From the NCBI RefSeq assembly GCF_964204645.1, contig NC_134031.1, forward strand, positions 13,959,307 to 14,023,306: a stretch of DNA of 64,000 nucleotides. The letters run 5' to 3'. The notes below the pieces were generated by a model that made no database searches, was not told the origin of the DNA, and was given only the letters and a program-made list of their open reading frames with translations. Made by a program: the position numbers and the translations under genes. The DNA is from Tubulanus polymorphus (lineage: Eukaryota > Nemertea > Palaeonemertea > Tubulaniformes > Tubulanidae). Positions within the stretch are counted from its first letter, which is position 1; each line of letters begins with the position of its first letter. Below are positions 16,251 to 62,224 of this stretch, piece by piece.

Positions 16251-16258
16251 AGCGATTA

Positions 16259-33953: not shown

Positions 33954-34142
33954 ATCGCTTCTCGGCCTATTGGCTAAGATCAAAGTGTAGTATCTGTTCT
34001 TATCAGCTTAATATCTGATACGCTCCCCATAGGGGAGCTTCGATATTAAACTGATTTTTGGCACTAGGTGAAGAGTCAGGGGCTTGCTCCGCCTTCGCCA
34101 CGAGTTGGCCTGGTATTGCAGTACCTCCAGGATCGGCTCACT
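33954..34142 (+). ncRNA. RNU2: U2 spliceosomal snRNA, copy 11
   Basis: Identical by eye to copy 1, second-type spacer, no private variant noticed. Confidence 0.96.
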
Positions 34143-35757: not shown

Positions 35758-35946
35758 ATCGCTTCTCGGCCTATTGGCTAAGATCAAAGTGTAGTATCTG
35801 TTCTTATCAGCTTAATATCTGATACGCTCCCCATAGGGAAGCTTCGATATTAAACTGATTTTTGGCACTAGGTGAAGAGTCAGGGGCTTGCTCCGCCTTC
35901 GCCACGAGTTGGCCTGGTATTGCAGTACCTCCAGGATCGGCTCACT
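35758..35946 (+). ncRNA. RNU2: U2 spliceosomal snRNA, copy 12 with stem IIb variant
   Basis: This copy has a G-to-A change at 35839 (CCATAGGGAAGC for CCATAGGGGAGC), which replaces a C:G pair by C:A in the stem IIb hairpin. It is the last complete copy before the retrotransposon block, and the following unit also carries an extra A near 36935. Promoter and 3' box are intact, so it may still be transcribed. Confidence 0.95.
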
Positions 35947-39426: not shown

Positions 39427-39847
39427 GGCCAGAAAAGAGCGTTTAGGTTTCTGTAAATAGCAATTAAATCGTTTCATACATACTATACATGTGACTGTGA
39501 ATGATGACTTGATATTTCTATACTAGACAAAAGTATTCCTATTTTGTAAATATAAAGAATAATTTGTGTCATTACGGATAATGTGTAAATATTGGAAAGA
39601 ATTAAACGATGTATGTATGATGTGTAGTGAAATGTTCCAGTTAATGCAGTTTGAATTGTCTTCTTAATATACATATACGACTGTTACTAACCAGTGTTAT
39701 GAATAACGTTTAAATCGAATTGAAAAGAATTAAATATACATTTATGATTGCTTGGAATATGATGTAAATACCTCCAGTCCCCCACCTGACTCCAGTTGGT
39801 GTGATGTAGTTGTTATGGAGCCTTCCTTTTGTAAAATAAAGTTTATA

Positions 39848-39892
<45 letters not shown>
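37077..39892 (+). mobile_element. U2-targeted LINE, lineage A, 5'-truncated
   Basis: The fragment starts within ORF2 just before the reverse-transcriptase core and runs through the ORF2 stop (39426), an own 3' UTR (39427-39850) and a 42-nt poly(A) (39851-39892). GATCAAAG, part of the U2 target, follows at 39893-39900. Its left junction is not in U2 but in the spacer, after CCCGTTCCGCCT. By comparison with intact units about 509 bp of array, including the promoter and U2 nt 1-23, are missing. So a truncated insertion with target deletion, or a later recombination, created the left end. The 3' UTR is unrelated to that of lineage B. Confidence 0.88.
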
Positions 39893-39894
<2 letters not shown>

Positions 39895-39900
39895 TCAAAG

Positions 39901-40907
39901 CTGCCTCCTTTTTGGCTTCAGGATAGCAAGCTCAGTCTATTTGCGCGCGGTGGCGGCTGGAAAGTTGCCTCTGGACATCGGTCTCACCAAAAACTAAAAA
40001 ACCTGACTGTGACATTTGATTCAGCGCACTTGCCGCCTCGGTGACTCATCGACGGTCTTTCATTACGCATAGAACTGTCGGCCAGCTATTGAAGCGGCGC
40101 GTGTCTAAGATCAAAACTGTAAATAAAACCCAAAATAGACTGTATCAAATAATTGTATGTACAAATACTCGCGTGCCTGTGTCGCTTTCCTGTTGACGGT
40201 CTATCAATGCGCATAGCACTGTCCGTTGGGCCGCGACGCATCCACGCACCTGTCTATGCACTGTAAATAGAAACACAAAACTGCTCCCGTATGAAACTTA
40301 TACTTTCAGGCAAATTCAGCACCAGACGTGAAGTACCAACTGCGCACCCCTTGACGGAGAAACCCATCCTCATTGGAGCTGCATCTTCGGATACCAGGAC
40401 CGTACTCTCATCTGGATAATTTGCGTTCAAAATGTGCTACTTTAAACTAATCAACATGCAGGGCGGACAACATAGAGGAATTTACACCAATATTTACTCG
40501 GAAAATGCAAAAACTCTCGGATTATTTACACGCGGAAAACGACCAAAAAAATTAAAAAAAACGAACATTACCGATCTTAGCCCCTTATAGTTATTTTCAA
40601 AGTTAGATGTATTAATTAGGCTTTAAACAACATAAACTCCCATCAGTCGCTTGCCGGTTCAGGCTGGATGGATGATTGTTCCGACGAACCGGAACCGACA
40701 TTTTCAATTATGTACTTCGATTTAAAAAAAATGATGTAACCTCGACCGACGACAACTCAACTACATTTTGTACTTCGATTTCCGATTTCAAAAACAAACC
40801 CCCTGTTTCGCTCCCGGCAGGTGTGGTGGGTATGTAAGGGACGCCAAATCAAACGAAATTTAATCGCAAAAGTTTTTACAATTACCAGTCAAATAAATAA
40901 GAGATTA
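39901..40907 (+). mobile_element. U2-targeted LINE, lineage B, 3' end only
   Basis: The segment from CTGCCTCCTTTTTGGCTTC to AATAAGAGATTA is nearly identical to 60544-61550 of the full-length element. It begins right after GATCAAAG of lineage A's 3' flank, with AAAG shared between both partners at the junction, and ends directly at AGATCAAAGTGTAGTATCTG of U2 with no long poly(A). It is a 5'-truncated insertion into the target copy regenerated behind lineage A. Confidence 0.85.
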
Positions 40908-41073
40908 AGATCAAAGTGTAGTATCTGTTCTTATCAGCTTAATATCTGATACGCTCCCCATAGGGGAGCTTCGATATTAAACTGATTTTTGGCACTAGGT
41001 GAAGAGTCAGGGGCTTGCTCCGCCTTCGCCACGAGTTGGCCTGGTATTGCAGTACCTCCAGGATCGGCTCACT
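40908..41073 (+). pseudogene. U2 snRNA lacking its first 23 nt
   Basis: This copy begins at AGATCAAAGTGTAG directly after the LINE 3' end and is otherwise normal through stem-loop IV and the 3' box. Promoter and 5' end are gone, so a functional U2 cannot be made from it. Confidence 0.93.
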
Positions 41074-42688
41074 CCCTCTGGGAGTTCAATATCAAATAAA
41101 GATAGTTGAGCCTAGGTCTATCCTCGCTTACCAGGTTCTGTTTGGCTCACGCCAACACGAGCTCTGTCTGTAGGCCTAAGATTTTTTTGGGTGCACGGGT
41201 GGCCGCTTAGCGGCCACCAGCGATTAGCCAATCGCACGCGTGAAAAACAACGTATCTGATTGGCTTAAATACTTATAAATCTCTGGCGATGTAATAGGCC
41301 GATGAATGGTTTGCGGCCAGGGTTTGTGTGGGCGTGAGCTTCGGCTTCAGTTCCAGAGAAGATCTAGACCATTAACAAACTGACCTTGACCTGGGCTCCG
41401 GCGTAATGTCGAAGTACATAATACGTAGAATATGCGTTGCGTAATTACGAATCAATGACGGAAGTTGAATTCCGTCGTCTGTCGTCGATTTATTCGCTTC
41501 ATTGGACTGTGAGTATATATTTACCATCCATGAATACTTTCGATCCATCAATCATCGCCCAATCGGGATCTCCGAATCAGTTGAAATACTTTCCGTCTTA
41601 AGTTTTAGCAACCAACGCTGAATTTCACGGCAAGTCATCTTATCCGGAGGCAAAGAAATCGAAGCTAGCAACCGCATTACTGAGTAACATAGCAACTTTT
41701 TTCGGTGATATCATAGCAACCGGTGGCATGATAAGGGTTCGAGTCCCGATTTATTGCGCTGTCATATCGGGCCACAGCGTATTCAAACCGTGTGCCTAAT
41801 AAATATCGAGTATCGACCTACGTTTATCCATATACGCGAGAAAGATTCACCCTGACTGCAAACTAGTAAAGGGCCTAGAGTTGAGTAGGCTTCGCCGAGA
41901 CCGGGAAGCGCGTAGCGCAGGACCCCAAAAATAGTACCTAGATCAATGGAACCAGCCACAGGTAGGGCAGTGAAACGGTAGGCTAATTCAACAAATAGGA
42001 GAGTCGACGGAAAACTGATGTATGTGCGAAATCCGTGGATCCTGAGAGGCAAATCGATGAAAAAATAGAGGATTCCTTGGAACTATTTTGCTTGAAGTTA
42101 GAATACGGCGCCATACCAAACGTGGCAGTTCGGGGATTCCCTGCAATATCCGTACGACACCGGGGCGGTACCAATTCAAATTCAAATCATCCCGTTCCGC
42201 CTTTTTCCTTTCTAGACGACTATCATTTCAAAAGTTTGGATGGGCATGTGGAGAACGAAACTCACTTCTACGTAAAGTGAAGATGTTGGCGGCGGACAGC
42301 GAACGCATCCCGCAAATTGTGCGAACCACGTGTCGTAGCCTACCGACATCGTAGCGGTTACGCTTTTGGGTTGGTTCACTGAGCGTTTCACAAGTGTTTT
42401 TATCGCGACTAAAGTGTAGGATATTATCGATATTATGAATATTCGTAGGTAGTAGCAAATTTTCCGGGCATAATGAAGTTCACAATTTATTTGCATAATT
42501 TTAGATCCATCGTAGTGGCTCGAAATTAATACCGGAATATATGAAATCAATTCAATTTTCATTTGAATGCCCTATCGAAAATTAAAATCATTCAAAAAGG
42601 TATAGCGCGTACATTTTTATATGTCTCACACAGTTGATGTAAATAACGGTTGTTCGACATATATATTGAATTGCGTTCATTCAACGGT

Positions 42689-42877
42689 ATCGCTTCTCGG
42701 CCTATTGGCTAAGATCAAAGTGTAGTATCTGTTCTTATCAGCTTAATATCTGATACGCTCCCCATAGGGGAGCTTCGATATTAAACTGATTTTTGGCACT
42801 AGGTGAAGAGTCAGGGGCTTGCTCCGCCTTCGCCACGAGTTGGCCTGGTATTGCAGTACCTCCAGGATCGGCTCACT
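42689..42877 (+). ncRNA. RNU2: U2 spliceosomal snRNA, copy 13
   Basis: The first complete gene right of the LINE block. The transcript region is unchanged; the 3' box reads AAATGAAGA. Confidence 0.96.
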
Positions 42878-44492
42878 CCCTCTGGGAGTTCAATATCAAA
42901 TGAAGATAGTTGAGCCTAGGTCTATCCTCGCTTACCAGGTTCTGTTTGGCTCACGCCAACACGAGCTCTGTCTGTAGGCCTAAGATTTTTTTGGGTGCAC
43001 GGGTGGCCGCTTAGCGGCCACCAGCGATTAGCCAATCGCACGCGTGAAAAACAACGTATCTGATTGGCTTAAATACTTATAAATCTCTGGCGATGTAATA
43101 GGCCGATGAATGGTTTGCGGCCAGGGTTTGTGTGGGCGTGAGCTTCGGCTTCAGTTCCAGAGAAGATCTAGACCATTAACAAACTGACCTTGACCTGGGC
43201 TCCGGCGTAATGTCGAAGTACATAATACGTAGAATATGCGTTGCGTAATTACGAATCAATGACGGAAGTTGAATTCCGTCGTCTGTCGTCGATTTATTCG
43301 CTTCATTGGACTGTGAGTATATATTTACCATCCATGAATACTTTCGATCCATCAATCATCGCCCAATCGGGATCTCCGAATCAGTTGAAATACTTTCCGT
43401 CTTAAGTTTTAGCAACCAACGCTGAATTTCACGGCAAGTCATCTTATCCGGAGGCAAAGAAATCGAAGCTAGCAACCGCATTACTGAGTAACATAGCAAC
43501 TTTTTTCGGTGATATCATAGCAACCGGTGGCATGATAAGGGTTCGAGTCCCGATTTATTGCGCTGTCATATCGGGCCACAGCGTATTCAAACCGTGTGCC
43601 TAATAAATATCGAGTATCGACCTACGTTTATCCATATACGCGAGAAAGATTCACCCTGACTGCAAACTAGTAAAGGGCCTAGAGTTGAGTAGGCTTCGCC
43701 GAGACCGGGAAGCGCGTAGCGCAGGACCCCAAAAATAGTACCTAGATCAATGGAACCAGCCACAGGTAGGGCAGTGAAACGGTAGGCTAATTCAACAAAT
43801 AGGAGAGTCGACGGAAAACTGATGTATGTGCGAAATCCGTGGATCCTGAGAGGCAAATCGATGAAAAAATAGAGGATTCCTTGGAACTATTTTGCTTGAA
43901 GTTAGAATACGGCGCCATACCAAACGTGGCAGTTCGGGGATTCCCTGCAATATCCGTACGACACCGGGGCGGTACCAATTCAAATTCAAATCATCCCGTT
44001 CCGCCTTTTTCCTTTCTAGACGACTATCATTTCAAAAGTTTGGATGGGCATGTGGAGAACGAAACTCACTTCTACGTAAAGTGAAGATGTTGGCGGCGGA
44101 CAGCGAACGCATCCCGCAAATTGTGCGAACCACGTGTCGTAGCCTACCGACATCGTAGCGGTTACGCTTTTGGGTTGGTTCACTGAGCGTTTCACAAGTG
44201 TTTTTATCGCGACTAAAGTGTAGGATATTATCGATATTATGAATATTCGTAGGTAGTAGCAAATTTTCCGGGCATAATGAAGTTCACAATTTATTTGCAT
44301 AATTTTAGATCCATCGTAGTGGCTCGAAATTAATACCGGAATATATGAAATCAATTCAATTTTCATTTGAATGCCCTATCGAAAATTAAAATCATTCAAA
44401 AAGGTATAGCGCGTACATTTTTATATGTCTCACACAGTTGATGTAAATAACGGTTGTTCGACATATATATTGAATTGCGTTCATTCAACGGT

Positions 44493-44681
44493 ATCGCTTC
44501 TCGGCCTATTGGCTAAGATCAAAGTGTAGTATCTGTTCTTATCAGCTTAATATCTGATACGCTCCCCATAGGGGAGCTTCGATATTAAACTGATTTTTGG
44601 CACTAGGTGAAGAGTCAGGGGCTTGCTCCGCCTTCGCCACGAGTTGGCCTGGTATTGCAGTACCTCCAGGATCGGCTCACT
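44493..44681 (+). ncRNA. RNU2: U2 spliceosomal snRNA, copy 14
   Basis: Unchanged transcript region, 1804 bp downstream of copy 13, with the AAATGAAGA 3' box variant. Confidence 0.96.
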
Positions 44682-46296
44682 CCCTCTGGGAGTTCAATAT
44701 CAAATGAAGATAGTTGAGCCTAGGTCTATCCTCGCTTACCAGGTTCTGTTTGGCTCACGCCAACACGAGCTCTGTCTGTAGGCCTAAGATTTTTTTGGGT
44801 GCACGGGTGGCCGCTTAGCGGCCACCAGCGATTAGCCAATCGCACGCGTGAAAAACAACGTATCTGATTGGCTTAAATACTTATAAATCTCTGGCGATGT
44901 AATAGGCCGATGAATGGTTTGCGGCCAGGGTTTGTGTGGGCGTGAGCTTCGGCTTCAGTTCCAGAGAAGATCTAGACCATTAACAAACTGACCTTGACCT
45001 GGGCTCCGGCGTAATGTCGAAGTACATAATACGTAGAATATGCGTTGCGTAATTACGAATCAATGACGGAAGTTGAATTCCGTCGTCTGTCGTCGATTTA
45101 TTCGCTTCATTGGACTGTGAGTATATATTTACCATCCATGAATACTTTCGATCCATCAATCATCGCCCAATCGGGATCTCCGAATCAGTTGAAATACTTT
45201 CCGTCTTAAGTTTTAGCAACCAACGCTGAATTTCACGGCAAGTCATCTTATCCGGAGGCAAAGAAATCGAAGCTAGCAACCGCATTACTGAGTAACATAG
45301 CAACTTTTTTCGGTGATATCATAGCAACCGGTGGCATGATAAGGGTTCGAGTCCCGATTTATTGCGCTGTCATATCGGGCCACAGCGTATTCAAACCGTG
45401 TGCCTAATAAATATCGAGTATCGACCTACGTTTATCCATATACGCGAGAAAGATTCACCCTGACTGCAAACTAGTAAAGGGCCTAGAGTTGAGTAGGCTT
45501 CGCCGAGACCGGGAAGCGCGTAGCGCAGGACCCCAAAAATAGTACCTAGATCAATGGAACCAGCCACAGGTAGGGCAGTGAAACGGTAGGCTAATTCAAC
45601 AAATAGGAGAGTCGACGGAAAACTGATGTATGTGCGAAATCCGTGGATCCTGAGAGGCAAATCGATGAAAAAATAGAGGATTCCTTGGAACTATTTTGCT
45701 TGAAGTTAGAATACGGCGCCATACCAAACGTGGCAGTTCGGGGATTCCCTGCAATATCCGTACGACACCGGGGCGGTACCAATTCAAATTCAAATCATCC
45801 CGTTCCGCCTTTTTCCTTTCTAGACGACTATCATTTCAAAAGTTTGGATGGGCATGTGGAGAACGAAACTCACTTCTACGTAAAGTGAAGATGTTGGCGG
45901 CGGACAGCGAACGCATCCCGCAAATTGTGCGAACCACGTGTCGTAGCCTACCGACATCGTAGCGGTTACGCTTTTGGGTTGGTTCACTGAGCGTTTCACA
46001 AGTGTTTTTATCGCGACTAAAGTGTAGGATATTATCGATATTATGAATATTCGTAGGTAGTAGCAAATTTTCCGGGCATAATGAAGTTCACAATTTATTT
46101 GCATAATTTTAGATCCATCGTAGTGGCTCGAAATTAATACCGGAATATATGAAATCAATTCAATTTTCATTTGAATGCCCTATCGAAAATTAAAATCATT
46201 CAAAAAGGTATAGCGCGTACATTTTTATATGTCTCACACAGTTGATGTAAATAACGGTTGTTCGACATATATATTGAATTGCGTTCATTCAACGGT

Positions 46297-46485
46297 ATCG
46301 CTTCTCGGCCTATTGGCTAAGATCAAAGTGTAGTATCTGTTCTTATCAGCTTAATATCTGATACGCTCCCCATAGGGGAGCTTCGATATTAAACTGATTT
46401 TTGGCACTAGGTGAAGAGTCAGGGGCTTGCTCCGCCTTCGCCACGAGTTGGCCTGGTATTGCAGTACCTCCAGGATCGGCTCACT
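46297..46485 (+). ncRNA. RNU2: U2 spliceosomal snRNA, copy 15
   Basis: Unchanged transcript region with the AAATGAAGA 3' box variant, the third consecutive unit to carry it. Confidence 0.96.
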
Positions 46486-48100
46486 CCCTCTGGGAGTTCA
46501 ATATCAAATGAAGATAGTTGAGCCTAGGTCTATCCTCGCTTACCAGGTTCTGTTTGGCTCACGCCAACACGAGCTCTGTCTGTAGGCCTAAGATTTTTTT
46601 GGGTGCACGGGTGGCCGCTTAGCGGCCACCAGCGATTAGCCAATCGCACGCGTGAAAAACAACGTATCTGATTGGCTTAAATACTTATAAATCTCTGGCG
46701 ATGTAATAGGCCGATGAATGGTTTGCGGCCAGGGTTTGTGTGGGCGTGAGCTTCGGCTTCAGTTCCAGAGAAGATCTAGACCATTAACAAACTGACCTTG
46801 ACCTGGGCTCCGGCGTAATGTCGAAGTACATAATACGTAGAATATGCGTTGCGTAATTACGAATCAATGACGGAAGTTGAATTCCGTCGTCTGTCGTCGA
46901 TTTATTCGCTTCATTGGACTGTGAGTATATATTTACCATCCATGAATACTTTCGATCCATCAATCATCGCCCAATCGGGATCTCCGAATCAGTTGAAATA
47001 CTTTCCGTCTTAAGTTTTAGCAACCAACGCTGAATTTCACGGCAAGTCATCTTATCCGGAGGCAAAGAAATCGAAGCTAGCAACCGCATTACTGAGTAAC
47101 ATAGCAACTTTTTTCGGTGATATCATAGCAACCGGTGGCATGATAAGGGTTCGAGTCCCGATTTATTGCGCTGTCATATCGGGCCACAGCGTATTCAAAC
47201 CGTGTGCCTAATAAATATCGAGTATCGACCTACGTTTATCCATATACGCGAGAAAGATTCACCCTGACTGCAAACTAGTAAAGGGCCTAGAGTTGAGTAG
47301 GCTTCGCCGAGACCGGGAAGCGCGTAGCGCAGGACCCCAAAAATAGTACCTAGATCAATGGAACCAGCCACAGGTAGGGCAGTGAAACGGTAGGCTAATT
47401 CAACAAATAGGAGAGTCGACGGAAAACTGATGTATGTGCGAAATCCGTGGATCCTGAGAGGCAAATCGATGAAAAAATAGAGGATTCCTTGGAACTATTT
47501 TGCTTGAAGTTAGAATACGGCGCCATACCAAACGTGGCAGTTCGGGGATTCCCTGCAATATCCGTACGACACCGGGGCGGTACCAATTCAAATTCAAATC
47601 ATCCCGTTCCGCCTTTTTCCTTTCTAGACGACTATCATTTCAAAAGTTTGGATGGGCATGTGGAGAACGAAACTCACTTCTACGTAAAGTGAAGATGTTG
47701 GCGGCGGACAGCGAACGCATCCCGCAAATTGTGCGAACCACGTGTCGTAGCCTACCGACATCGTAGCGGTTACGCTTTTGGGTTGGTTCACTGAGCGTTT
47801 CACAAGTGTTTTTATCGCGACTAAAGTGTAGGATATTATCGATATTATGAATATTCGTAGGTAGTAGCAAATTTTCCGGGCATAATGAAGTTCACAATTT
47901 ATTTGCATAATTTTAGATCCATCGTAGTGGCTCGAAATTAATACCGGAATATATGAAATCAATTCAATTTTCATTTGAATGCCCTATCGAAAATTAAAAT
48001 CATTCAAAAAGGTATAGCGCGTACATTTTTATATGTCTCACACAGTTGATGTAAATAACGGTTGTTCGACATATATATTGAATTGCGTTCATTCAACGGT

Positions 48101-48289
48101 ATCGCTTCTCGGCCTATTGGCTAAGATCAAAGTGTAGTATCTGTTCTTATCAGCTTAATATCTGATACGCTCCCCATAGGGGAGCTTCGATATTAAACTG
48201 ATTTTTGGCACTAGGTGAAGAGTCAGGGGCTTGCTCCGCCTTCGCCACGAGTTGGCCTGGTATTGCAGTACCTCCAGGATCGGCTCACT
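48101..48289 (+). ncRNA. RNU2: U2 spliceosomal snRNA, copy 16
   Basis: Unchanged transcript region; the 3' box returns to AAATAAAGA. Confidence 0.96.
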
Positions 48290-49904
48290 CCCTCTGGGAG
48301 TTCAATATCAAATAAAGATAGTTGAGCCTAGGTCTATCCTCGCTTACCAGGTTCTGTTTGGCTCACGCCAACACGAGCTCTGTCTGTAGGCCTAAGATTT
48401 TTTTGGGTGCACGGGTGGCCGCTTAGCGGCCACCAGCGATTAGCCAATCGCACGCGTGAAAAACAACGTATCTGATTGGCTTAAATACTTATAAATCTCT
48501 GGCGATGTAATAGGCCGATGAATGGTTTGCGGCCAGGGTTTGTGTGGGCGTGAGCTTCGGCTTCAGTTCCAGAGAAGATCTAGACCATTAACAAACTGAC
48601 CTTGACCTGGGCTCCGGCGTAATGTCGAAGTACATAATACGTAGAATATGCGTTGCGTAATTACGAATCAATGACGGAAGTTGAATTCCGTCGTCTGTCG
48701 TCGATTTATTCGCTTCATTGGACTGTGAGTATATATTTACCATCCATGAATACTTTCGATCCATCAATCATCGCCCAATCGGGATCTCCGAATCAGTTGA
48801 AATACTTTCCGTCTTAAGTTTTAGCAACCAACGCTGAATTTCACGGCAAGTCATCTTATCCGGAGGCAAAGAAATCGAAGCTAGCAACCGCATTACTGAG
48901 TAACATAGCAACTTTTTTCGGTGATATCATAGCAACCGGTGGCATGATAAGGGTTCGAGTCCCGATTTATTGCGCTGTCATATCGGGCCACAGCGTATTC
49001 AAACCGTGTGCCTAATAAATATCGAGTATCGACCTACGTTTATCCATATACGCGAGAAAGATTCACCCTGACTGCAAACTAGTAAAGGGCCTAGAGTTGA
49101 GTAGGCTTCGCCGAGACCGGGAAGCGCGTAGCGCAGGACCCCAAAAATAGTACCTAGATCAATGGAACCAGCCACAGGTAGGGCAGTGAAACGGTAGGCT
49201 AATTCAACAAATAGGAGAGTCGACGGAAAACTGATGTATGTGCGAAATCCGTGGATCCTGAGAGGCAAATCGATGAAAAAATAGAGGATTCCTTGGAACT
49301 ATTTTGCTTAAAGTTAGAATACGGCGCCATACCAAACGTGGCAGTTCGGGGATTCCCTGCAATATCCGTACGACACCGGGGCGGTACCAATTCAAATTCA
49401 AATCATCCCGTTCCGCCTTTTTCCTTTCTAGACGACTATCATTTCAAAAGTTTGGATGGGCATGTGGAGAACGAAACTCACTTCTACGTAAAGTGAAGAT
49501 GTTGGCGGCGGACAGCGAACGCATCCCGCAAATTGTGCGAACCACGTGTCGTAGCCTACCGACATCGTAGCGGTTACGCTTTTGGGTTGGTTCACTGAGC
49601 GTTTCACAAGTGTTTTTATCGCGACTAAAGTGTAGGATATTATCGATATTATGAATATTCGTAGGTAGTAGCAAATTTTCCGGGCATAATGAAGTTCACA
49701 ATTTATTTGCATAATTTTAGATCCATCGTAGTGGCTCGAAATTAATACCGGAATATATGAAATCAATTCAATTTTCATTTGAATGCCCTATCGAAAATTA
49801 AAATCATTCAAAAAGGTATAGCGCGTACATTTTTATATGTCTCACACAGTTGATGTAAATAACGGTTGTTCGACATATATATTGAATTGCGTTCATTCAA
49901 CGGT

Positions 49905-50093
49905 ATCGCTTCTCGGCCTATTGGCTAAGATCAAAGTGTAGTATCTGTTCTTATCAGCTTAATATCTGATACGCTCCCCATAGGGGAGCTTCGATATTAA
50001 ACTGATTTTTGGCACTAGGTGAAGAGTCAGGGGCTTGCTCCGCCTTCGCCACGAGTTGGCCTGGTATTGCAGTACCTCCAGGATCGGCTCACT
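49905..50093 (+). ncRNA. RNU2: U2 spliceosomal snRNA, copy 17
   Basis: Unchanged transcript region. Its upstream spacer carries the G-to-A variant TTGCTTAAAG near 49310. Confidence 0.96.
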
Positions 50094-51708
50094 CCCTCTG
50101 GGAGTTCAATATCAAATAAAGATAGTTGAGCCTAGGTCTATCCTCGCTTACCAGGTTCTGTTTGGCTCACGCCAACACGAGCTCTGTCTGTAGGCCTAAG
50201 ATTTTTTTGGGTGCACGGGTGGCCGCTTAGCGGCCACCAGCGATTAGCCAATCGCACGCGTGAAAAACAACGTATCTGATTGGCTTAAATACTTATAAAT
50301 CTCTGGCGATGTAATAGGCCGATGAATGGTTTGCGGCCAGGGTTTGTGTGGGCGTGAGCTTCGGCTTCAGTTCCAGAGAAGATCTAGACCATTAACAAAC
50401 TGACCTTGACCTGGGCTCCGGCGTAATGTCGAAGTACATAATACGTAGAATATGCGTTGCGTAATTACGAATCAATGACGGAAGTTGAATTCCGTCGTCT
50501 GTCGTCGATTTATTCGCTTCATTGGACTGTGAGTATATATTTACCATCCATGAATACTTTCGATCCATCAATCATCGCCCAATCGGGATCTCCGAATCAG
50601 TTGAAATACTTTCCGTCTTAAGTTTTAGCAACCAACGCTGAATTTCACGGCAAGTCATCTTATCCGGAGGCAAAGAAATCGAAGCTAGCAACCGCATTAC
50701 TGAGTAACATAGCAACTTTTTTCGGTGATATCATAGCAACCGGTGGCATGATAAGGGTTCGAGTCCCGATTTATTGCGCTGTCATATCGGGCCACAGCGT
50801 ATTCAAACCGTGTGCCTAATAAATATCGAGTATCGACCTACGTTTATCCATATACGCGAGAAAGATTCACCCTGACTGCAAACTAGTAAAGGGCCTAGAG
50901 TTGAGTAGGCTTCGCCGAGACCGGGAAGCGCGTAGCGCAGGACCCCAAAAATAGTACCTAGATCAATGGAACCAGCCACAGGTAGGGCAGTGAAACGGTA
51001 GGCTAATTCAACAAATAGGAGAGTCGACGGAAAACTGATGTATGTGCGAAATCCGTGGATCCTGAGAGGCAAATCGATGAAAAAATAGAGGATTCCTTGG
51101 AACTATTTTGCTTGAAGTTAGAATACGGCGCCATACCAAACGTGGCAGTTCGGGGATTCCCTGCAATATCCGTACGACACCGGGGCGGTACCAATTCAAA
51201 TTCAAATCATCCCGTTCCGCCTTTTTCCTTTCTAGACGACTATCATTTCAAAAGTTTGGATGGGCATGTGGAGAACGAAACTCACTTCTACGTAAAGTGA
51301 AGATGTTGGCGGCGGACAGCGAACGCATCCCGCAAATTGTGCGAACCACGTGTCGTAGCCTACCGACATCGTAGCGGTTACGCTTTTGGGTTGGTTCACT
51401 GAGCGTTTCACAAGTGTTTTTATCGCGACTAAAGTGTAGGATATTATCGATATTATGAATATTCGTAGGTAGTAGCAAATTTTCCGGGCATAATGAAGTT
51501 CACAATTTATTTGCATAATTTTAGATCCATCGTAGTGGCTCGAAATTAATACCGGAATATATGAAATCAATTCAATTTTCATTTGAATGCCCTATCGAAA
51601 ATTAAAATCATTCAAAAAGGTATAGCGCGTACATTTTTATATGTCTCACACAGTTGATGTAAATAACGGTTGTTCGACATATATATTGAATTGCGTTCAT
51701 TCAACGGT

Positions 51709-51897
51709 ATCGCTTCTCGGCCTATTGGCTAAGATCAAAGTGTAGTATCTGTTCTTATCAGCTTAATATCTGATACGCTCCCCATAGGGGAGCTTCGATA
51801 TTAAACTGATTTTTGGCACTAGGTGAAGAGTCAGGGGCTTGCTCCGCCTTCGCCACGAGTTGGCCTGGTATTGCAGTACCTCCAGGATCGGCTCACT
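51709..51897 (+). ncRNA. RNU2: U2 spliceosomal snRNA, copy 18
   Basis: Unchanged transcript region, AAATAAAGA 3' box, no private variant noticed. Confidence 0.96.
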
Positions 51898-53512
51898 CCC
51901 TCTGGGAGTTCAATATCAAATAAAGATAGTTGAGCCTAGGTCTATCCTCGCTTACCAGGTTCTGTTTGGCTCACGCCAACACGAGCTCTGTCTGTAGGCC
52001 TAAGATTTTTTTGGGTGCACGGGTGGCCGCTTAGCGGCCACCAGCGATTAGCCAATCGCACGCGTGAAAAACAACGTATCTGATTGGCTTAAATACTTAT
52101 AAATCTCTGGCGATGTAATAGGCCGATGAATGGTTTGCGGCCAGGGTTTGTGTGGGCGTGAGCTTCGGCTTCAGTTCCAGAGAAGATCTAGACCATTAAC
52201 AAACTGACCTTGACCTGGGCTCCGGCGTAATGTCGAAGTACATAATACGTAGAATATGCGTTGCGTAATTACGAATCAATGACGGAAGTTGAATTCCGTC
52301 GTCTGTCGTCGATTTATTCGCTTCATTGGACTGTGAGTATATATTTACCATCCATGAATACTTTCGATCCATCAATCATCGCCCAATCGGGATCTCCGAA
52401 TCAGTTGAAATACTTTCCGTCTTAAGTTTTAGCAACCAACGCTGAATTTCACGGCAAGTCATCTTATCCGGAGGCAAAGAAATCGAAGCTAGCAACCGCA
52501 TTACTGAGTAACATAGCAACTTTTTTCGGTGATATCATAGCAACCGGTGGCATGATAAGGGTTCGAGTCCCGATTTATTGCGCTGTCATATCGGGCCACA
52601 GCGTATTCAAACCGTGTGCCTAATAAATATCGAGTATCGACCTACGTTTATCCATATACGCGAGAAAGATTCACCCTGACTGCAAACTAGTAAAGGGCCT
52701 AGAGTTGAGTAGGCTTCGCCGAGACCGGGAAGCGCGTAGCGCAGGACCCCAAAAATAGTACCTAGATCAATGGAACCAGCCACAGGTAGGGCAGTGAAAC
52801 GGTAGGCTAATTCAACAAATAGGAGAGTCGACGGAAAACTGATGTATGTGCGAAATCCGTGGATCCTGAGAGGCAAATCGATGAAAAAATAGAGGATTCC
52901 TTGGAACTATTTTGCTTGAAGTTAGAATACGGCGCCATACCAAACGTGGCAGTTCGGGGATTCCCTGCAATATCCGTACGACACCGGGGCGGTACCAATT
53001 CAAATTCAAATCATCCCGTTCCGCCTTTTTCCTTTCTAGACGACTATCATTTCAAAAGTTTGGATGGGCATGTGGAGAACGAAACTCACTTCTACGTAAA
53101 GTGAAGATGTTGGCGGCGGACAGCGAACGCATCCCGCAAATTGTGCGAACCACGTGTCGTAGCCTACCGACATCGTAGCGGTTACGCTTTTGGGTTGGTT
53201 CACTGAGCGTTTCACAAGTGTTTTTATCGCGACTAAAGTGTAGGATATTATCGATATTATGAATATTCGTAGGTAGTAGCAAATTTTCCGGGCATAATGA
53301 AGTTCACAATTTATTTGCATAATTTTAGATCCATCGTAGTGGCTCGAAATTAATACCGGAATATATGAAATCAATTCAATTTTCATTTGAATGCCCTATC
53401 GAAAATTAAAATCATTCAAAAAGGTATAGCGCGTACATTTTTATATGTCTCACACAGTTGATGTAAATAACGGTTGTTCGACATATATATTGAATTGCGT
53501 TCATTCAACGGT

Positions 53513-53701
53513 ATCGCTTCTCGGCCTATTGGCTAAGATCAAAGTGTAGTATCTGTTCTTATCAGCTTAATATCTGATACGCTCCCCATAGGGGAGCTTC
53601 GATATTAAACTGATTTTTGGCACTAGGTGAAGAGTCAGGGGCTTGCTCCGCCTTCGCCACGAGTTGGCCTGGTATTGCAGTACCTCCAGGATCGGCTCAC
53701 T
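53513..53701 (+). ncRNA. RNU2: U2 spliceosomal snRNA, copy 19
   Basis: Unchanged transcript region with the AAATGAAGA 3' box. It is the last complete U2 gene in the window. Confidence 0.96.
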
Positions 53702-55316
53702 CCCTCTGGGAGTTCAATATCAAATGAAGATAGTTGAGCCTAGGTCTATCCTCGCTTACCAGGTTCTGTTTGGCTCACGCCAACACGAGCTCTGTCTGTA
53801 GGCCTAAGATTTTTTTGGGTGCACGGGTGGCCGCTTAGCGGCCACCAGCGATTAGCCAATCGCACGCGTGAAAAACAACGTATCTGATTGGCTTAAATAC
53901 TTATAAATCTCTGGCGATGTAATAGGCCGATGAATGGTTTGCGGCCAGGGTTTGTGTGGGCGTGAGCTTCGGCTTCAGTTCCAGAGAAGATCTAGACCAT
54001 TAACAAACTGACCTTGACCTGGGCTCCGGCGTAATGTCGAAGTACATAATACGTAGAATATGCGTTGCGTAATTACGAATCAATGACGGAAGTTGAATTC
54101 CGTCGTCTGTCGTCGATTTATTCGCTTCATTGGACTGTGAGTATATATTTACCATCCATGAATACTTTCGATCCATCAATCATCGCCCAATCGGGATCTC
54201 CGAATCAGTTGAAATACTTTCCGTCTTAAGTTTTAGCAACCAACGCTGAATTTCACGGCAAGTCATCTTATCCGGAGGCAAAGAAATCGAAGCTAGCAAC
54301 CGCATTACTGAGTAACATAGCAACTTTTTTCGGTGATATCATAGCAACCGGTGGCATGATAAGGGTTCGAGTCCCGATTTATTGCGCTGTCATATCGGGC
54401 CACAGCGTATTCAAACCGTGTGCCTAATAAATATCGAGTATCGACCTACGTTTATCCATATACGCGAGAAAGATTCACCCTGACTGCAAACTAGTAAAGG
54501 GCCTAGAGTTGAGTAGGCTTCGCCGAGACCGGGAAGCGCGTAGCGCAGGACCCCAAAAATAGTACCTAGATCAATGGAACCAGCCACAGGTAGGGCAGTG
54601 AAACGGTAGGCTAATTCAACAAATAGGAGAGTCGACGGAAAACTGATGTATGTGCGAAATCCGTGGATCCTGAGAGGCAAATCGATGAAAAAATAGAGGA
54701 TTCCTTGGAACTATTTTGCTTAAAGTTAGAATACGGCGCCATACCAAACGTGGCAGTTCGGGGATTCCCTGCAATATCCGTACGACACCGGGGCGGTACC
54801 AATTCAAATTCAAATCATCCCGTTCCGCCTTTTTCCTTTCTAGACGACTATCATTTCAAAAGTTTGGATGGGCATGTGGAGAACGAAACTCACTTCTACG
54901 TAAAGTGAAGATGTTGGCGGCGGACAGCGAACGCATCCCGCAAATTGTGCGAACCACGTGTCGTAGCCTACCGACATCGTAGCGGTTACGCTTTTGGGTT
55001 GGTTCACTGAGCGTTTCACAAGTGTTTTTATCGCGACTAAAGTGTAGGATATTATCGATATTATGAATATTCGTAGGTAGTAGCAAATTTTCCGGGCATA
55101 ATGAAGTTCACAATTTATTTGCATAATTTTAGATCCATCGTAGTGGCTCGAAATTAATACCGGAATATATGAAATCAATTCAATTTTCATTTGAATGCCC
55201 TATCGAAAATTAAAATCATTCAAAAAGGTATAGCGCGTACATTTTTATATGTCTCACACAGTTGATGTAAATAACGGTTGTTCGACATATATATTGAATT
55301 GCGTTCATTCAACGGT

Positions 55317-55353
55317 ATCGCTTCTCGGCCTATTGGCTAAGATCAAAGTGTAG
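55317..55353 (+). pseudogene. U2 snRNA 5' end, interrupted by LINE
   Basis: A normal promoter and U2 nt 1-37 are followed at once by the 5' end of the full-length LINE. The break falls inside the branch-site recognition sequence (GUAG/UA). The intact U2 promoter could drive transcription into the element, as in other LINEs hosted in RNA genes; that is inference. Confidence 0.95.
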
Positions 55354-55439
55354 ACGTCGTTGAATGCAGACGTGTTTGCGGCGCTCTCCAGCAATTTCAT
55401 TCATTCGATCGATATTACGAAGAATTCTTAAACCAGAAA

Positions 55440-56480
55440 ATGGATATGGAACTACAATCAGCTAAGAATTTCCGATATAACATGGATGTAGCTCAGGATC
55501 TACAGAACTTTCTGCTAGTACCGAAGATTAGAGTGCAACTTCGAAAATTGGATATGCCGGAAATTTGTGAGATTTTTGGGAACGACCCGACTTGCCGCTC
55601 CTGTATCGAAAAAGTTATCGACTTCAACTTTAACAACGTTGGCGTGTTTTGCACATCGAAAGAAACATACAAAATTTTACGAAAACACGTGATTTCATAT
55701 CGTGGCGCGTCGCTTAAATTCAGGAGTGCGACCGATACCCCCACAATCGTCAGGGTGGAGGGAATTCCGGCTAACTGCCCGCATGCAGTTGTAAACAAAG
55801 TTTTTGAACCATACGGCGAAATCGTAACCGGCTCATACCATCCGACAATCGGCAAAACTGATTTTCGAAATGGAGAAAAGAGAGTTTTGGAGATCGTTCT
55901 GAAATCCCCGATACAAAGGAACTTGACCCTCAGCAGTAAATCGTACGGTATGTTGCTTATACGGGCATACTACGCTGGACAGCCGGATCATTGTGCGATA
56001 TGCAATGATTTCGATCATACATGGGTTACATGTAGCATTTCGTGTACCCATCCAACGCACGAACCCCATAAATGCCGTCAGCTTGGGTATAGACATCGCG
56101 TCCAGCAAGCGGTGTTCAGCCAAGAGAACCCGACGCCGGCGGAGGCTCCAACAGAACAACACCAGGGACATAACCAGGAAACGGCAGCTGAACCAATTAA
56201 CTTGGTAACAGAATCGTCAACTTCAGGAGCTCGAACTGCGGTGAACGAAACAACCGACAAAAGAAAGACGTCACCCTCGGCAGCATCGAAGACCAGCACA
56301 GTTCCAGCGGGAAAGAAGAGGCCGTCTTCGCCAACAGAGCTGCCGGCGACGCCAACAAAGACGACGAAAACAGTACCCGACCAAGATGCGACCCTCGACA
56401 AACCACCTTCTGGTGAAAAAACTACGAAGAAAAAAGATGCAAACAAAGTGAAATCAAGACCGAAATCATTGAAATACTGA
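55440..56480 (+). CDS. LINE lineage B ORF1: RRM-like and zinc-knuckle nucleic-acid-binding protein
   Basis: 346 residues, ATG at 55440, TGA at 56478-56480. Residues 103-136 (IVRVEGIPANCPH, VVNKVFEPYGEIV) have the strand-helix-strand look of an RRM. C185-x2-C188-x4-H193-x4-C198 is a canonical CCHC knuckle. It is followed by C202, H204, H207, H210 and C212, which may form a second metal site. From about residue 225 the chain is rich in P, T, S, K and E, with a basic tail likely to aid nuclear entry or RNA binding. In related LINEs ORF1 coats the element RNA. The diverged copy at 63690-64000 keeps the Cys/His region almost intact. Confidence 0.9.
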   Translation: MDMELQSAKNFRYNMDVAQDLQNFLLVPKIRVQLRKLDMPEICEIFGNDPTCRSCIEKVIDFNFNNVGVFCTSKETYKILRKHVISYRGASLKFRSATDTPTIVRVEGIPANCPHAVVNKVFEPYGEIVTGSYHPTIGKTDFRNGEKRVLEIVLKSPIQRNLTLSSKSYGMLLIRAYYAGQPDHCAICNDFDHTWVTCSISCTHPTHEPHKCRQLGYRHRVQQAVFSQENPTPAEAPTEQHQGHNQETAAEPINLVTESSTSGARTAVNETTDKRKTSPSAASKTSTVPAGKKRPSSPTELPATPTKTTKTVPDQDATLDKPPSGEKTTKKKDANKVKSRPKSLKY

Positions 56481-56524
56481 GGTAATGTATACATTCTTTC
56501 AAACTTTTAAGTAGGTTTAATAAT

Positions 56525-59500
56525 ATGGCGAATAATGAGAAAATTAAATTTCTATCTTTAAACTGCAATGGTTTAGTATTTTCTAACTCTAGAACCAATG
56601 CACTTTTTGAGAAAATTAAAAACTGCGAAATTTTCCTACTTCAAGAGACTCATATATCTACTGATTTTGAACAGCATAAAATCTTTAAACCTCTTCAGAA
56701 ATATTTTGAAATCTTTTATAATATTTATGCTAATGAAAGGAAGAATGGAGTGGTCATTGGGATAAAAAGATCTTTAGATTATTCCGTCATTAAAAAGAAC
56801 AATGACAATATGGGCAGGTTAATCGCTCTCAAATTAACACTTTTTGGCAAAATTATTAGCTTGGTCAGTATTTATGCTCCAAACAAAGATCGCAACAGAA
56901 AAACTTTCTTACAAGATATAGGGAACTATTTGGATGTACAACCTAATGAAGACTTGATAATTGCGGGGGATTTTAATTGTATAGAAAGTCCATTAGATCG
57001 AGTTTCACCACTAGTTAATGTAAACATACAAAATGGCTCAGAACAATTAGCAAATTTATGTCAGCAATTTAGACTGGCAGATGCCTATAGACTTAAACAC
57101 CCTAATAGACCAGCCTTCTCCAGAATAACAAAACGAAACAATAATGTTATCAAAACCCGGATCGACCGCTTTTATGTATCGGACACTTTACAGCCAGACA
57201 TAGAGCACGTGAAACATGTCAACTCTATTCACTCCGATCACAGGATCGTCGAGTTAACAATCAACACTTCTCAAGACAAACGTGGCAAGGGATATTGGCA
57301 TCTCAATAAAGAACTACTTAAGAACCCTAATTACATCACTATGATGACAGACTTTTGGACACAATGGCAAAATCACAAACAGTTTTACGATTCGATCATA
57401 GACTGGTGGGAGGAGAGCAAAGTTCAAATAAAACAAAGATCTATGAAATTCTCTTCCGAACTCAGGAAAATTAAAAACAACCTTAAGAAATCTTTAGAGT
57501 CTCAACTATTTGTCCTTGAGAAACTTTCAGACTTAGGGATAACCGCTAATCAAAACCAAATTGACTATTTGACCAAACGTATCCGCGACTTTGAAATTGA
57601 AAACGCAAAAAGCGCTATGGTAAGATCTAAAATCGAATGGAGAGAATTTGGAGAAACAACGAGTACATTTTTCGCAAACTTTGAAAAACAACGCGCTAAA
57701 GCGAATCATATTAAGACTCTTAAAAACGACTTTGGTGAAATAAAAACCAATCAAAAAGATATTGAAAAAATTCAACTGAAATATTACAAAGATTTATATA
57801 GACGAGAGGAAACGGATCAAGATGCTCAAAATTTCTTTCTAGCTAATTTACCCCAAATTTCGGATCAGAACAAACTTCGGCACGATTCCCAAATAAACAT
57901 GGACGAATTGAATAGTTCGGTAAAGTCTTTTCAAAATAATAAATCTCCTGGAATGGATGGCATACCTATTGAGTTTTATAAAGAATTTTGGCACATTCTT
58001 CAAGATGACTTTCTACAATTAGTACATGCATGTATACAAGAAAATAGACTTTCAAAATCAATGCAGACAGGTATTATATCTTTAATCCATAAGAAAAATG
58101 ACAAAACAGATCTGAAAAATTGGAGACCGATCTCCTTATTATGTACGGATTACAAAATTTTAACAAAAGTTCTCGCAAACAGACTAATTAACTGTCTACC
58201 AGACATAATTCACCCCGACCAAACCTGTAGCGTAAAGGGCCGTCGAATTCAAGATAACTGTCATATAATTAGAGATTTAATTGACTACGTAAATCACGAC
58301 AATTTAGATGCATTTTTGGTGACAATTGATCAAATGAAAGCTTTCGATCGCGTCGACTGGCAGTATATGTTTAAAACTTTGGAATCTTTCGGCTTCGGAG
58401 AAAATCTAATTCAGTATATAAAAACTTGCTATTCGAATCCAAAATCCAAAATCAAAAGCAACGGTTTCTTAACTAAGCCATTTTCTTTAGAAAGAGGCGT
58501 TAGACAAGGGTGTCCCATGAGCGCGATACTCTATATAATAGCGGCTGAACCACTAGCAATCAAAATACGCGAAAATAACAACATTAAAGGAGTGAAATTA
58601 CCAGACGACACAGACATTAAAATCAAACAATACGCTGATGACACTACACTATGTCTAACCGACTTAGAATCATTGAATCAGGTCTTTACAACTGTGACTC
58701 TTTTTGAACGAGCATCGGGCGCAAAAATTAATATAGATAAAACTGAATGTATGTGGATTGGAGCTTGGAAAAACAGGAACGATAAGCCTTTAGACTTGAA
58801 TTGGAAACGATCTATGAAAATTTGTGGCATTCATTTCGGCAATGAAAATACGGATGATTTAAATTGGCATCACAAAATTAATAAGGTTCAAAATGTAATC
58901 AATCTTTGGCGACAAACGAAATTATCTCTGCACGGTAAAAAAGTTGTTATCAACTCATTCATATTGCCGATCTTGTGGTATACTTCTGAAGTATTTCCGA
59001 TTCCGGATAGATATATTCGAATTTTTGAGCAAAAAATTATCAATTTCTTGTGGGACTATAAAAAGCATCTCGTCGGCAAAGACATAGTACACAGGAAAAT
59101 GGAGCACGGAGGTTTAGACATACATAACATAAAATATAGACAACAAACACAGGCAATTAAGACGATAATTAGTCACGCGACAAAACCGACGCACTGGAAC
59201 CCGCTAATCAATTACAACTTGCAAAGATTTCTCGGCCCAGGCTGGAATATTCGAAACATACTTCACAATGAACTACCTAAAAAGTTAATTACTCACGACT
59301 TCTATAGACATCTACTAAAATCATGGACAGCATTTCAAAAAGACTTATTTCCTACCGAAACAATCGCGGAAATTCTACAAAAACCCATCTTCAACAATCC
59401 TGAGATTAAACTTTCCAAGACAATTAATTTCAAAGAGTATATAGACAACGGGATAACCAATCTACAACACATTTTCGATAACAGCGGTAATCTGAAACCC

Positions 59501-60337
59501 CTGCGAGAAACTCCTCTAAATGACGGATTAAAACATACAGCTATATGCAACGCGATACCGCAGCACTGGAAATTTATTCTATCAGATCAAAATCTCGATT
59601 TCGATGAACTGCCCAAAATATATGTCCAATTTGAAAATATCGACTGTGATATTGAAAAAATTGCTTCTTGTCAAATTTATAGAATTCTATTGACTAAAAA
59701 TCTGAATAATAATGTACCTATCGGGCAAACGAAAATTACTGAATTGTTGAATACCGAATTAAACTGGCCGGATATTTGGAATGAAACTTATAACAAATTC
59801 ATTGATAGGCGTTTTAGTGATATTCATTGGAAATTATTACATAATACTCTCGCGACGGCCTCAAAATTAGTACTTTGGCGAATTAAAACTGATCCTAACT
59901 GTAAAATTTGCGGACGCGCGGCTACAAATGATCACGTGGTATACTCATGCACAGAAGCGCGACAACTATATTCACACATACAGACAATTTTTGAACGCAT
60001 TATAGGAACGCCTATACGAATCACTCAAGATATCATATACACCGGTGTAACAAAAACAATGCAAAAGAATTTCCACAAACGCACGCTCGCAAACTACCTT
60101 CTATTCCTCGCACAATTTATTTTGTACAAAAATCACTACAATTTAGAACAAGGCACTGGCCGCATCAACACAATTATTTACTTCAAAAACTCTCTTATAG
60201 ATCGCTTGAACCAAGAAATAATACTTCAACGACATCTCCACATTTGGAGTCATAATGACGTCCTTATACGCCTCGATGAAAATGGACAAAGTGTAGTAAA
60301 TAAAATTGCGATTGATACTATCGACACTGTTCTCTAA
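56525..60337 (+). CDS. LINE lineage B ORF2: endonuclease and reverse transcriptase
   Basis: 1270 residues, ATG at 56525, 44 nt after ORF1, TAA at 60335-60337. Residues 7-245 form an apurinic-type endonuclease: SLNCNGL (11-17), QETH (40-43), AGDFNC (147-152), RIDRFY (212-217) and SDHR (237-240) hold the metal-binding and catalytic residues. A charged, probably helical linker (295-410) follows. The RT includes KSPGMDGIP (473-481), NWRPISLL (532-539), motif A IDQMKAFDRV with D602, motif B GVRQGCPMSA (658-667) and YADD (703-706). The C-terminal motif is C1126-x2-C1129-x7-H1137-x4-C1142. It should nick U2 DNA and copy the element RNA onto the nicked end. All catalytic positions I can identify are intact. 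Confidence 0.95.
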   Translation: MANNEKIKFLSLNCNGLVFSNSRTNALFEKIKNCEIFLLQETHISTDFEQHKIFKPLQKYFEIFYNIYANERKNGVVIGIKRSLDYSVIKKNNDNMGRLIALKLTLFGKIISLVSIYAPNKDRNRKTFLQDIGNYLDVQPNEDLIIAGDFNCIESPLDRVSPLVNVNIQNGSEQLANLCQQFRLADAYRLKHPNRPAFSRITKRNNNVIKTRIDRFYVSDTLQPDIEHVKHVNSIHSDHRIVELTINTSQDKRGKGYWHLNKELLKNPNYITMMTDFWTQWQNHKQFYDSIIDWWEESKVQIKQRSMKFSSELRKIKNNLKKSLESQLFVLEKLSDLGITANQNQIDYLTKRIRDFEIENAKSAMVRSKIEWREFGETTSTFFANFEKQRAKANHIKTLKNDFGEIKTNQKDIEKIQLKYYKDLYRREETDQDAQNFFLANLPQISDQNKLRHDSQINMDELNSSVKSFQNNKSPGMDGIPIEFYKEFWHILQDDFLQLVHACIQENRLSKSMQTGIISLIHKKNDKTDLKNWRPISLLCTDYKILTKVLANRLINCLPDIIHPDQTCSVKGRRIQDNCHIIRDLIDYVNHDNLDAFLVTIDQMKAFDRVDWQYMFKTLESFGFGENLIQYIKTCYSNPKSKIKSNGFLTKPFSLERGVRQGCPMSAILYIIAAEPLAIKIRENNNIKGVKLPDDTDIKIKQYADDTTLCLTDLESLNQVFTTVTLFERASGAKINIDKTECMWIGAWKNRNDKPLDLNWKRSMKICGIHFGNENTDDLNWHHKINKVQNVINLWRQTKLSLHGKKVVINSFILPILWYTSEVFPIPDRYIRIFEQKIINFLWDYKKHLVGKDIVHRKMEHGGLDIHNIKYRQQTQAIKTIISHATKPTHWNPLINYNLQRFLGPGWNIRNILHNELPKKLITHDFYRHLLKSWTAFQKDLFPTETIAEILQKPIFNNPEIKLSKTINFKEYIDNGITNLQHIFDNSGNLKPLRETPLNDGLKHTAICNAIPQHWKFILSDQNLDFDELPKIYVQFENIDCDIEKIASCQIYRILLTKNLNNNVPIGQTKITELLNTELNWPDIWNETYNKFIDRRFSDIHWKLLHNTLATASKLVLWRIKTDPNCKICGRAATNDHVVYSCTEARQLYSHIQTIFERIIGTPIRITQDIIYTGVTKTMQKNFHKRTLANYLLFLAQFILYKNHYNLEQGTGRINTIIYFKNSLIDRLNQEIILQRHLHIWSHNDVLIRLDENGQSVVNKIAIDTIDTVL

Positions 60338-61554
60338 TTACGTGCCTTCATTAGTTTCGAACCTACATATCCTAAATATGACAATCGAGGTGTGTTTTGA
60401 TTTGGAATGAACAGGGATGACGGTCTATCAATGCGCATAGAACTGTCTGACCACTTTTGTTCTATATCATCACATACGCATAGTTTAATTGAGTCTGGTG
60501 TTTGGACTGTAAACTCAGCCCCATTGCCGCGATAGCTGGAAAGCTGCCTCCTTTTCGGCTTCAGGATAGCAAGCTCAGTCTATTTGCGCGCGGTGGCGGC
60601 TGGAAAGTTGCCTCTGGACATCGGTCTCATCAAAAACTAAAAAACCTGACTGTGACATTTGATTCAGCGCACTTGCCGCCTCGGTGACTCATCGACGGTC
60701 TTTCATTACGCATAGAACTGTCGGCCAGCTATTGAAGCGGCGCGTGTCTAAGATCAAAACTGTAAATAAAACCCAAAATAGACTGTATCAAATAATTGTA
60801 TGTACAAATACTCGCGTGCCTGTGTCGCTTTCCTGTTGACGGTCTATCAATGCGCATAGCACTGTCCGTTGGGCCGCGACGCATCCACGCACCTGTCTAT
60901 GCACTGTAAATAGAAACACAAAACTGCCCCCGTATGAAACTTATACTTTCAGGCAAATTCAGCACCAGACGTGAAGTACCAACTGCGCACCCCTTGACGG
61001 AGAAACCCATCCTCATTGGAGCTGCATCTTCGGATACCAGGACCGTACTCTCATCTGGATAATTTGCGTTCAAAATGTGCTACTTTAAACTAATCAACAT
61101 GCAGGGCGGACAACATAGAGGAATTTACACCAATATTTACTCGGAAAATGCAAAAACTCTCGGATTATTTACACGCGGAAAACGACCAAAAAAATAAAAA
61201 AAAACGAACATTACCGATCTTAGCCCCTTATAGTTATTTTCAAATTTAGATGTATTAATTAGGCTTTAAACAACATAAACTCCCATCAGTCGCTTGCCGG
61301 TTCAGGCTGGATGGATGATTGTTCCGACGAACCGGAACCGACATTTTCAATTATGTACTTCGATTTAAAAAAATGATGTAACCGCGACCGACGACAACTC
61401 AACTACATTTTGTACTTCGATTTCCGATTTCAAAAACAAACCCCCTGTTTCGCTCCCGGCAGGTGTGGTGGGTATGTAAGGGTCGCCAAATCAAACGAAA
61501 TTTAATCGCAAAAGTTTTTACAATTACCAGTCAAATAAATAAGAGATTAAGATC
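60338..61554 (+). other. 3' UTR of lineage B LINE
   Basis: This is non-coding and long for a LINE. The motif GACGGTCT(A/T)TCA(A/T)T(G/A)CGCATAG then (A/C)ACTGTC occurs three times (60419-60447, 60694-60722, 60838-60866). GCTGGAAAG(C/T)TGCCTC occurs twice (60536 and 60599). CTAAGATCAAA at about 60748 equals U2 nt 21-31. The UTR ends with GATTAAGATC before the poly(A), again resembling the target. The solitary copy at 39901-40907 confirms where the 3' end lies. Confidence 0.75.
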
Positions 61555-61578
61555 AAAAAAAAAAAAAAAAAAAAAAAA

Positions 61579-61745
61579 AGATCAAAGTGTAGTATCTGTT
61601 TTTTATCAGCTTAATATCTGATACGCTCCCCATAGGGGAGCTTCGATATTAAACTGATTTTTGGCACTAGGTGAAGAGTCAGGGGCTTGCTCCGCCTTCG
61701 CCACGAGTTGGCCTGGTATTGCAGTACCTCCAGGATCGGCTCACT
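61579..61745 (+). pseudogene. U2 snRNA 3' part behind the full-length LINE
   Basis: It starts with the duplicated target AGATCAAAGTGTAG. It has TCTGTTTTTTATCAGC where other copies have TCTGTTCTTATCAGC, an insertion and substitution just after the branch-site sequence. Stem-loop IV and the 3' box remain. Confidence 0.92.
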
Positions 61746-62224
61746 CCCTCTGGGAGTTCAATATCAAATAAAGATAGTTGAGCCTATGTCTATCCTCGCT
61801 TACCAGGTTCTGTTTGTCTCCCGTCGAAATGCTCACGCCAACACGAGCTCTGTCTGTAGGCCTAAGATTTTTAGAGCGCACGGGTGGCCGCTTAGCGGCC
61901 ACCTGCACTTAGCCAATAGCACGCGTGAAAAACAACCTATCTGATTGGCTTAAATACTTATAAATCTATGACAATGCAATAGGCCGATGAATGGTTTGCA
62001 GCCAGGGTTTGTGTGGGCGTGAGCTTCGGCTTTAGTTCCAGAGAAGATCTAGACCATTAACAAACTGACCTTGACCTGGGCTCCGGCGTAACGTCGAAGT
62101 ACATAATACGTAGAATATGCATATGTGTTATGCATATGTAGTGCCAATTACGAATCAATGACGGAAGTTGAATTCCGTCGTCTGTCGTCGATTTATTCTT
62201 TTCATTGGACTATGAATATATATA
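61579..62224 (+). repeat. Diverged terminal unit of the U2 array
   Basis: The sequence follows the unit from U2 through GGCCGCTTAGCGGCC and the spacer to CATTGGACTATGAATATAT, but with many substitutions, an insertion GTCTCCCGTCGAAAT near 61818 and an insertion around 62122-62146. Similarity stops at about 62224, which marks the right border of the array. A short ATG-initiated frame here is spacer-derived. Confidence 0.85.

Follow-up and report, generated by a model that had tools for sequence, protein, structure and literature searches.

An apparently intact L1/Tx1-group LINE that prefers U2 snRNA genes, with a nick position different from the one published for Keno

To our knowledge, few long interspersed nuclear elements (LINEs) target U2 small nuclear RNA (snRNA) genes, those being Keno and Utopia. 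Records of Keno exist for frogs, fish, lancelet and hydra (PMC4640811); '37 nucleotides' is the figure given for it, and TCTGTTCTTATCAG its 3' flank (PMC6136364). Its published 3' junctions begin with TCTGTTC, that is, at U2 nucleotide (nt) 39 (PMC6136364, PMC4640811), and the U2 flanks of Utopia, to which those of Keno are identical, begin at that base (PMC4640811). Here we describe LINE A, a retrotransposon of ~6.2 kb that interrupts a U2 gene in a 64,000-nucleotide window of the Tubulanus polymorphus genome (the whole stretch analysed; C7:13959307-14023306 of a 267.8-Mb eukaryotic assembly). LINE A is a real, apparently intact, U2-preferring member of the L1/Tx1 group, and its nick position differs from the published Keno position. 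Coordinates given without a contig are window positions, and the LINE A and LINE B copies, ORF1 and ORF2 of LINE A and the U2 genes placed by them lie on the + strand.

LINE A is full length and occupies 55354..61578, with boundaries set by U2 alignment and a poly(A) end that is ambiguous by 1 base. It follows U2 nt 1-37 (55317..55353), which are identical to the U2 of the surrounding array; after the element the gene resumes with nt 24-37 and runs to ~61749. An earlier note on this DNA had placed the LINE between nt 37 and a duplicated nt 24-37, and the exact 14-mer AGATCAAAGTGTAG, found in identical copies at 55340..55353 and 61579..61592, bears this out. The 3' untranslated region (UTR; 60338..61554) ends in TTAAGATCAAA followed by a run of 25 A's (61555-61579), the last of which is possibly target-derived. 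This tail is common to copies of A2, a 79%-identical sister of LINE A; the 5' 247 bp of LINE A have one match only in the genome. We ruled out AGATCAAAGTGTAG as element sequence because GTGTAG is absent from dispersed LINE A and A2 copies. Exact AGATCAAAGTGTAG matches were also read at five loci outside U2 genes: four have no U2 or LINE homology, and at the fifth, L027, a 5' fragment of U2 is present but no LINE.

Both open reading frames (ORFs) are unbroken and catalytic motifs are visible, as the same note had said. ORF1 (55440..56480; 346 aa) has conserved CCHC-type zinc knuckle(s), with C185-C188-H193-C198 invariant in five relatives; it gave no Pfam match, no PDB match and no detectable match to solved structures, and its fold as predicted from the single sequence was unusable (pLDDT 39.5). 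ORF2 (56525..60337; 1270 aa), with the motifs GDFN, SDH, DQMKAFD and YADD, matches PF03372 (Exo_endo_phos), PF00078 (RVT_1) and PF13966 (zf-RVT) above the Pfam cut-off. An N-terminal apurinic/apyrimidinic (AP)-type endonuclease, then a reverse transcriptase (RT), then a C-terminal Cys/His motif is the domain order by which the L1/Tx1 group is recognized. The best solved-structure match of ORF2 is human L1 ORF2p (E 6e-80, co-linear over 880 residues), and with E values of 5e-18 to 1e-13 against L1 endonucleases and 1e-16 against R2 the protein resembles L1 more closely than it does R2 or other LINE proteins of solved structure. Because of this domain order and best match, we assign LINE A to the L1/Tx1 group on sequence grounds. 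No external relatives were found in viral and prokaryotic contig collections. Comparison of ORF2 with that of a dispersed, 79%-identical A2 copy gave a nonsynonymous rate (dN) of 0.117 and a synonymous rate (dS) of 1.34; dN/dS is ~0.09, and ORF2 has therefore been under strong purifying selection.

The same U2 position has received other insertions. The window holds a second LINE-interrupted U2, in an insertion complex at 37077-40921. There LINE B (37077..39891), a 5'-truncated element with a poly(A) that is 48% aa identical to LINE A ORF2, is followed by a U2 remnant at the same nick site (AGATCAAAG; 39892..39900) and then by a 5'-truncated LINE A copy consisting of 3' UTR only (39901..40907; 99.2% identical to the full copy), whose tail joins U2 seamlessly, the gene continuing from nt 24 onward (40908..41077; Rfam U2 147.5 bits). 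Another LINE A copy, now a decayed remnant (L053), lies on the same contig 32 kb past the downstream end of the window and runs into U2 at nt 22. All four insertions (full-length LINE A, its truncated copy, the L053 remnant and LINE B) use one nick site. Their 5' ends and 3' junctions differ, which argues for separate insertion events. The 5' end of LINE B (37060-37077) joins U2 spacer ~490 bp upstream of the gene, at unit position 1318, with ~500 bp of target missing; this deletion accompanied or came after the insertion.

Four insertion sites have both flanks readable: the U2 site (GGCT^AAGATCAAAGTGTAG, 15-bp duplication), one on C12 (GTCT^AAGACTGT, 8 bp), one on C3 (GAGTT^AAGAGAAAYRTTTC, 14 bp) and that of the A2 copy L057 (CGTT^AAAGGTAACTTGATT, 15 bp). 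All four share a nick motif, Y-T^A-A-R on the top strand and 5'-YYTT^AR on the bottom, and the non-U2 sites GTCTAAGACTGT, GTTAAGAGAAAC and GTTAAAGGTAAC have this motif together with duplications of 8-15 bp. Such a motif is common for L1-type endonucleases. The earlier note had put the cut within GUAGUA; this holds for the top-strand junction, which falls inside GTAG|TA, but the priming nick, as read from the 3' junction, would lie ~15 bases upstream at CT^AAGATC. Before the poly(A), the 3' ends of LINE A and A2 carry TAAGATCAAA, ten bases that equal U2 nt 22-31 and are a probable primer-annealing sequence; of 29 related copies, 17 have an exact TTTAAGATCAAA tail. A second, internal CTAAGATCAAA occurs in the LINE A 3' UTR at ~60748-60758, with an equivalent at 40106 and repeated GACGGTCTATCAATGCGCATAG blocks nearby, and these may mark former 3' ends.

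In our view, LINE A is likely an autonomous retrotransposon of the L1/Tx1 group with a preference for U2 snRNA genes, which it would enter by a bottom-strand nick and by priming annealed to the tail or poly(A). Most likely, the ORF2 endonuclease would nick the U2 bottom strand at 5'-GATCTT^AGCC (top strand CT^AAGATC, nt 22/23), and the freed 3' end would prime reverse transcription of the element RNA. Annealing of this primer to the TAAGATCAAA tail would yield a seamless join, as seen in the truncated LINE A and the L053 remnant, annealing to poly(A) instead would give the junction of the full-length element, and a top-strand cut 14-15 bases downstream, in GTAG^TA, would produce the target duplication. 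The junctions appear to leave this scheme well constrained. The U2 promoter copy before LINE A looks intact, since the 1,354 bp upstream match other array units at 99.93% identity; LINE A, inserted 37 bases behind this promoter, may be transcribed from it and could still be active.

LINE B might have come to U2 by another route. Trans-mobilisation by the enzyme of LINE A, which would bear on LINE B alone and does not conflict with the mechanism proposed for LINE A, would account for the fact that other LINE B copies lie at unrelated sites, yet the U2 copy lies at LINE A's exact nick. This is possible, but we lean against it: the endonucleases of LINE A and LINE B may have a nick motif in common, and a single event is involved.

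How strong the U2 preference is can be judged from the copies elsewhere. Strict U2 targeting, as the earlier note implied, does not hold, since U2 houses only about half of the LINE A copies and hardly any of those of A2 and LINE B; that note had also named, as speaking against it, copies mostly outside U2 and lacking a shared target, and although the copies do lie mostly outside, they share a nick motif. Several observations weigh against a U2-preferring LINE A. First, at least three more LINE A 3' ends of 93-99% identity (C53, C3:950 kb and C12:4.48 Mb) are none of them inside U2. Second, most relatives insert outside U2: A2 is dispersed, one of its copies (L057, on C3) being full length with its ORFs open, all inspected A2 copies and all 29 additional related 3' ends examined are outside U2, and LINE B relatives of 91-99% identity are also dispersed. 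Third, YYTT^AR is so common a motif that it alone leaves the choice of U2 unexplained, and the A's at the poly(A) boundary leave 1-2 bases of uncertainty in the position of the bottom-strand nick. Finally, U2-located events are few, some may have been multiplied by recombination within the array, and the support for the mechanism is at the level of DNA.

Even so, three of six LINE A 3' ends lie in the ~27 U2 genes (P ~2e-11 or lower). Among all 48 related 3' ends, four are in U2 against 0.001-0.004 expected, a rough expectation based on 0.3-1.6 million candidate nick sites genome-wide as scaled from 30 kb of sequence; this is non-random reuse of one U2 position and rules out chance insertion. 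One of the four is the LINE A copy that prompted the analysis, and the other three alone still exclude chance. Since LINE A, A2 and LINE B copies also occur outside U2, LINE A favours U2 strongly but not exclusively. A generic, dispersed L1-like family that cuts YYTT^AR anywhere, with U2 as an accidental hot spot where the tail match perhaps stabilises priming, would be in keeping with the L1-like nick motif, the dispersal of A2 and LINE B, and the 99.7% nucleotide identity of the U2-located LINE B to a dispersed copy (L060). We think it unlikely, as insertions in U2 are about a thousandfold more numerous than expected and fall at one base position.

It is more doubtful still that LINE A is an ordinary Keno and that the offset of its insertion point merely reflects where boundaries have been drawn in the literature. 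The two have the same domain group and target gene, and the 5' junction of LINE A at nt 37 is near Keno's '37 nucleotides' (PMC6136364), but the published 3' flank TCTGTTCTTATCAG, identical to that of Utopia, starts at nt 39, whereas 15-17 extra U2 bases (AGATCAAAGTGTAGTA plus ambiguous A's) stand between the LINE A poly(A) and TCTG. Nor is GTGTAG element sequence, to judge from the dispersed copies. By the 3' flank LINE A is not Keno, the comparison being with published Keno junctions, not with Keno sequence; of the Keno/Tx1 likeness that had been suggested, the L1/Tx1 group stands, on the match to L1 ORF2p, and the match to Keno is not supported, with a flank at nt 22-24 as opposed to nt 39. 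Spread of one old insertion along the array by unequal crossing-over, which would make the copies non-independent, fits the occurrence of all in-array copies on one contig and the homogenisation implied by units 99.8-100% identical, but is very improbable given that the 5' ends differ, the 3' junctions differ (25 A's versus none), the truncated LINE A lacks ORF2 sequence that the L053 remnant retains, and LINE B is a different lineage.

For the U2-preferring LINE A, we tentatively suggest, with somewhat less than even confidence, a further reading: it would represent a U2-targeting lineage apart from Keno and Utopia that found the gene independently and primes at nt 22/23 via its U2-identical tail, A2 having left U2 and kept the tail as a fossil. 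If this is true, the loss of target specificity is traceable within one genome.

The tandem U2 array in which these insertions lie (15917..55316) comprises 19 full-length U2 genes in ~1.80-kb units (1,803-1,804 bp; 99.8-100% identical over the unit) and is broken by the 37077-40921 complex; the gene at 35758 is a sequence variant. The last homogenised unit, with its array-type promoter and spacer, is the one interrupted at 55317. The rest of the interrupted gene (61593..61749; Rfam U2 128 bits) is inside a diverged (91%) terminal array unit, and the flank downstream of LINE A, at only 90.9% identity, is the diverged array edge. Past this edge, 63714-63913 holds an ORF1 fragment of another LINE A relative, from the same zinc-knuckle region and with 74% nucleotide identity.

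Further observations concern sequences elsewhere in the genome. A LINE A copy on C53 (flank in L051) and a LINE B copy at C7:12.88 Mb (flank in L084) both lie within copies of one repeat, ATGGTTGAAAATCGTGAT... Exact 32-nt fragments of U2 (nt 2-33) occur at three loci on C9 and C6 (L054:502-533, L055:511-542 and L056:497-528), each flanked on one side by the 3' end of a LINE with a (CGTAAT)n tail and on the other by sequence common to all three; these are possibly a U2-headed retroposed or duplicated unit. The L027 fragment (C6:951382, - strand) is a fold-back of U2 nt 4-39, CTTAGCCAATAGG...CCTATTGGCTAAG, with a GPCR-like reading frame shortly downstream, and looks like a self-primed U2 retrocopy.

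Present together in this genome are a U2-preferring family, one copy of which seems intact, its close but dispersed sister, whose tail has the same identity to U2, and a second lineage at the same nick. Because these lineages coexist, the gain and loss of a target site by LINEs, whether through endonuclease recognition or RNA-tail annealing, becomes directly testable from a comparison of their endonucleases and tails.

Among known systems, Keno, a Tx1-type non-LTR retrotransposon, resembles LINE A in that it is a LINE, encodes an AP-like endonuclease and interrupts U2, one junction lying near nt 37. It differs in its downstream flank, which in LINE A begins at nt 22-24, 15-17 bases before Keno's nt 39, with a duplication of 14-15 bp, and in its U2 specificity, as every A2 copy inspected and about half of those of LINE A lie elsewhere. 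Utopia has the same target gene and a similar ecology, with several lineages per array and some members of weak specificity that insert at U2-like sites. Its PD-(D/E)xK restriction-like endonuclease is C-terminal to the RT and it belongs to early-branching clades, whereas LINE A has an N-terminal AP endonuclease and an L1-type RT; the endonuclease type rules out membership of Utopia. Human LINE-1 has an endonuclease and RT co-linear with those of LINE A over 880 residues, and its nick motif, TTTT^AA, resembles YYTT^AR; L1 is not U2-targeted, and the ORF1 of LINE A, by contrast, has zinc knuckles. Finally, rDNA-specific LINEs of the R1/R2/R7 type sit at a fixed position in a multicopy RNA gene, as LINE A does in U2, but with another target gene and other RT and endonuclease lineages.

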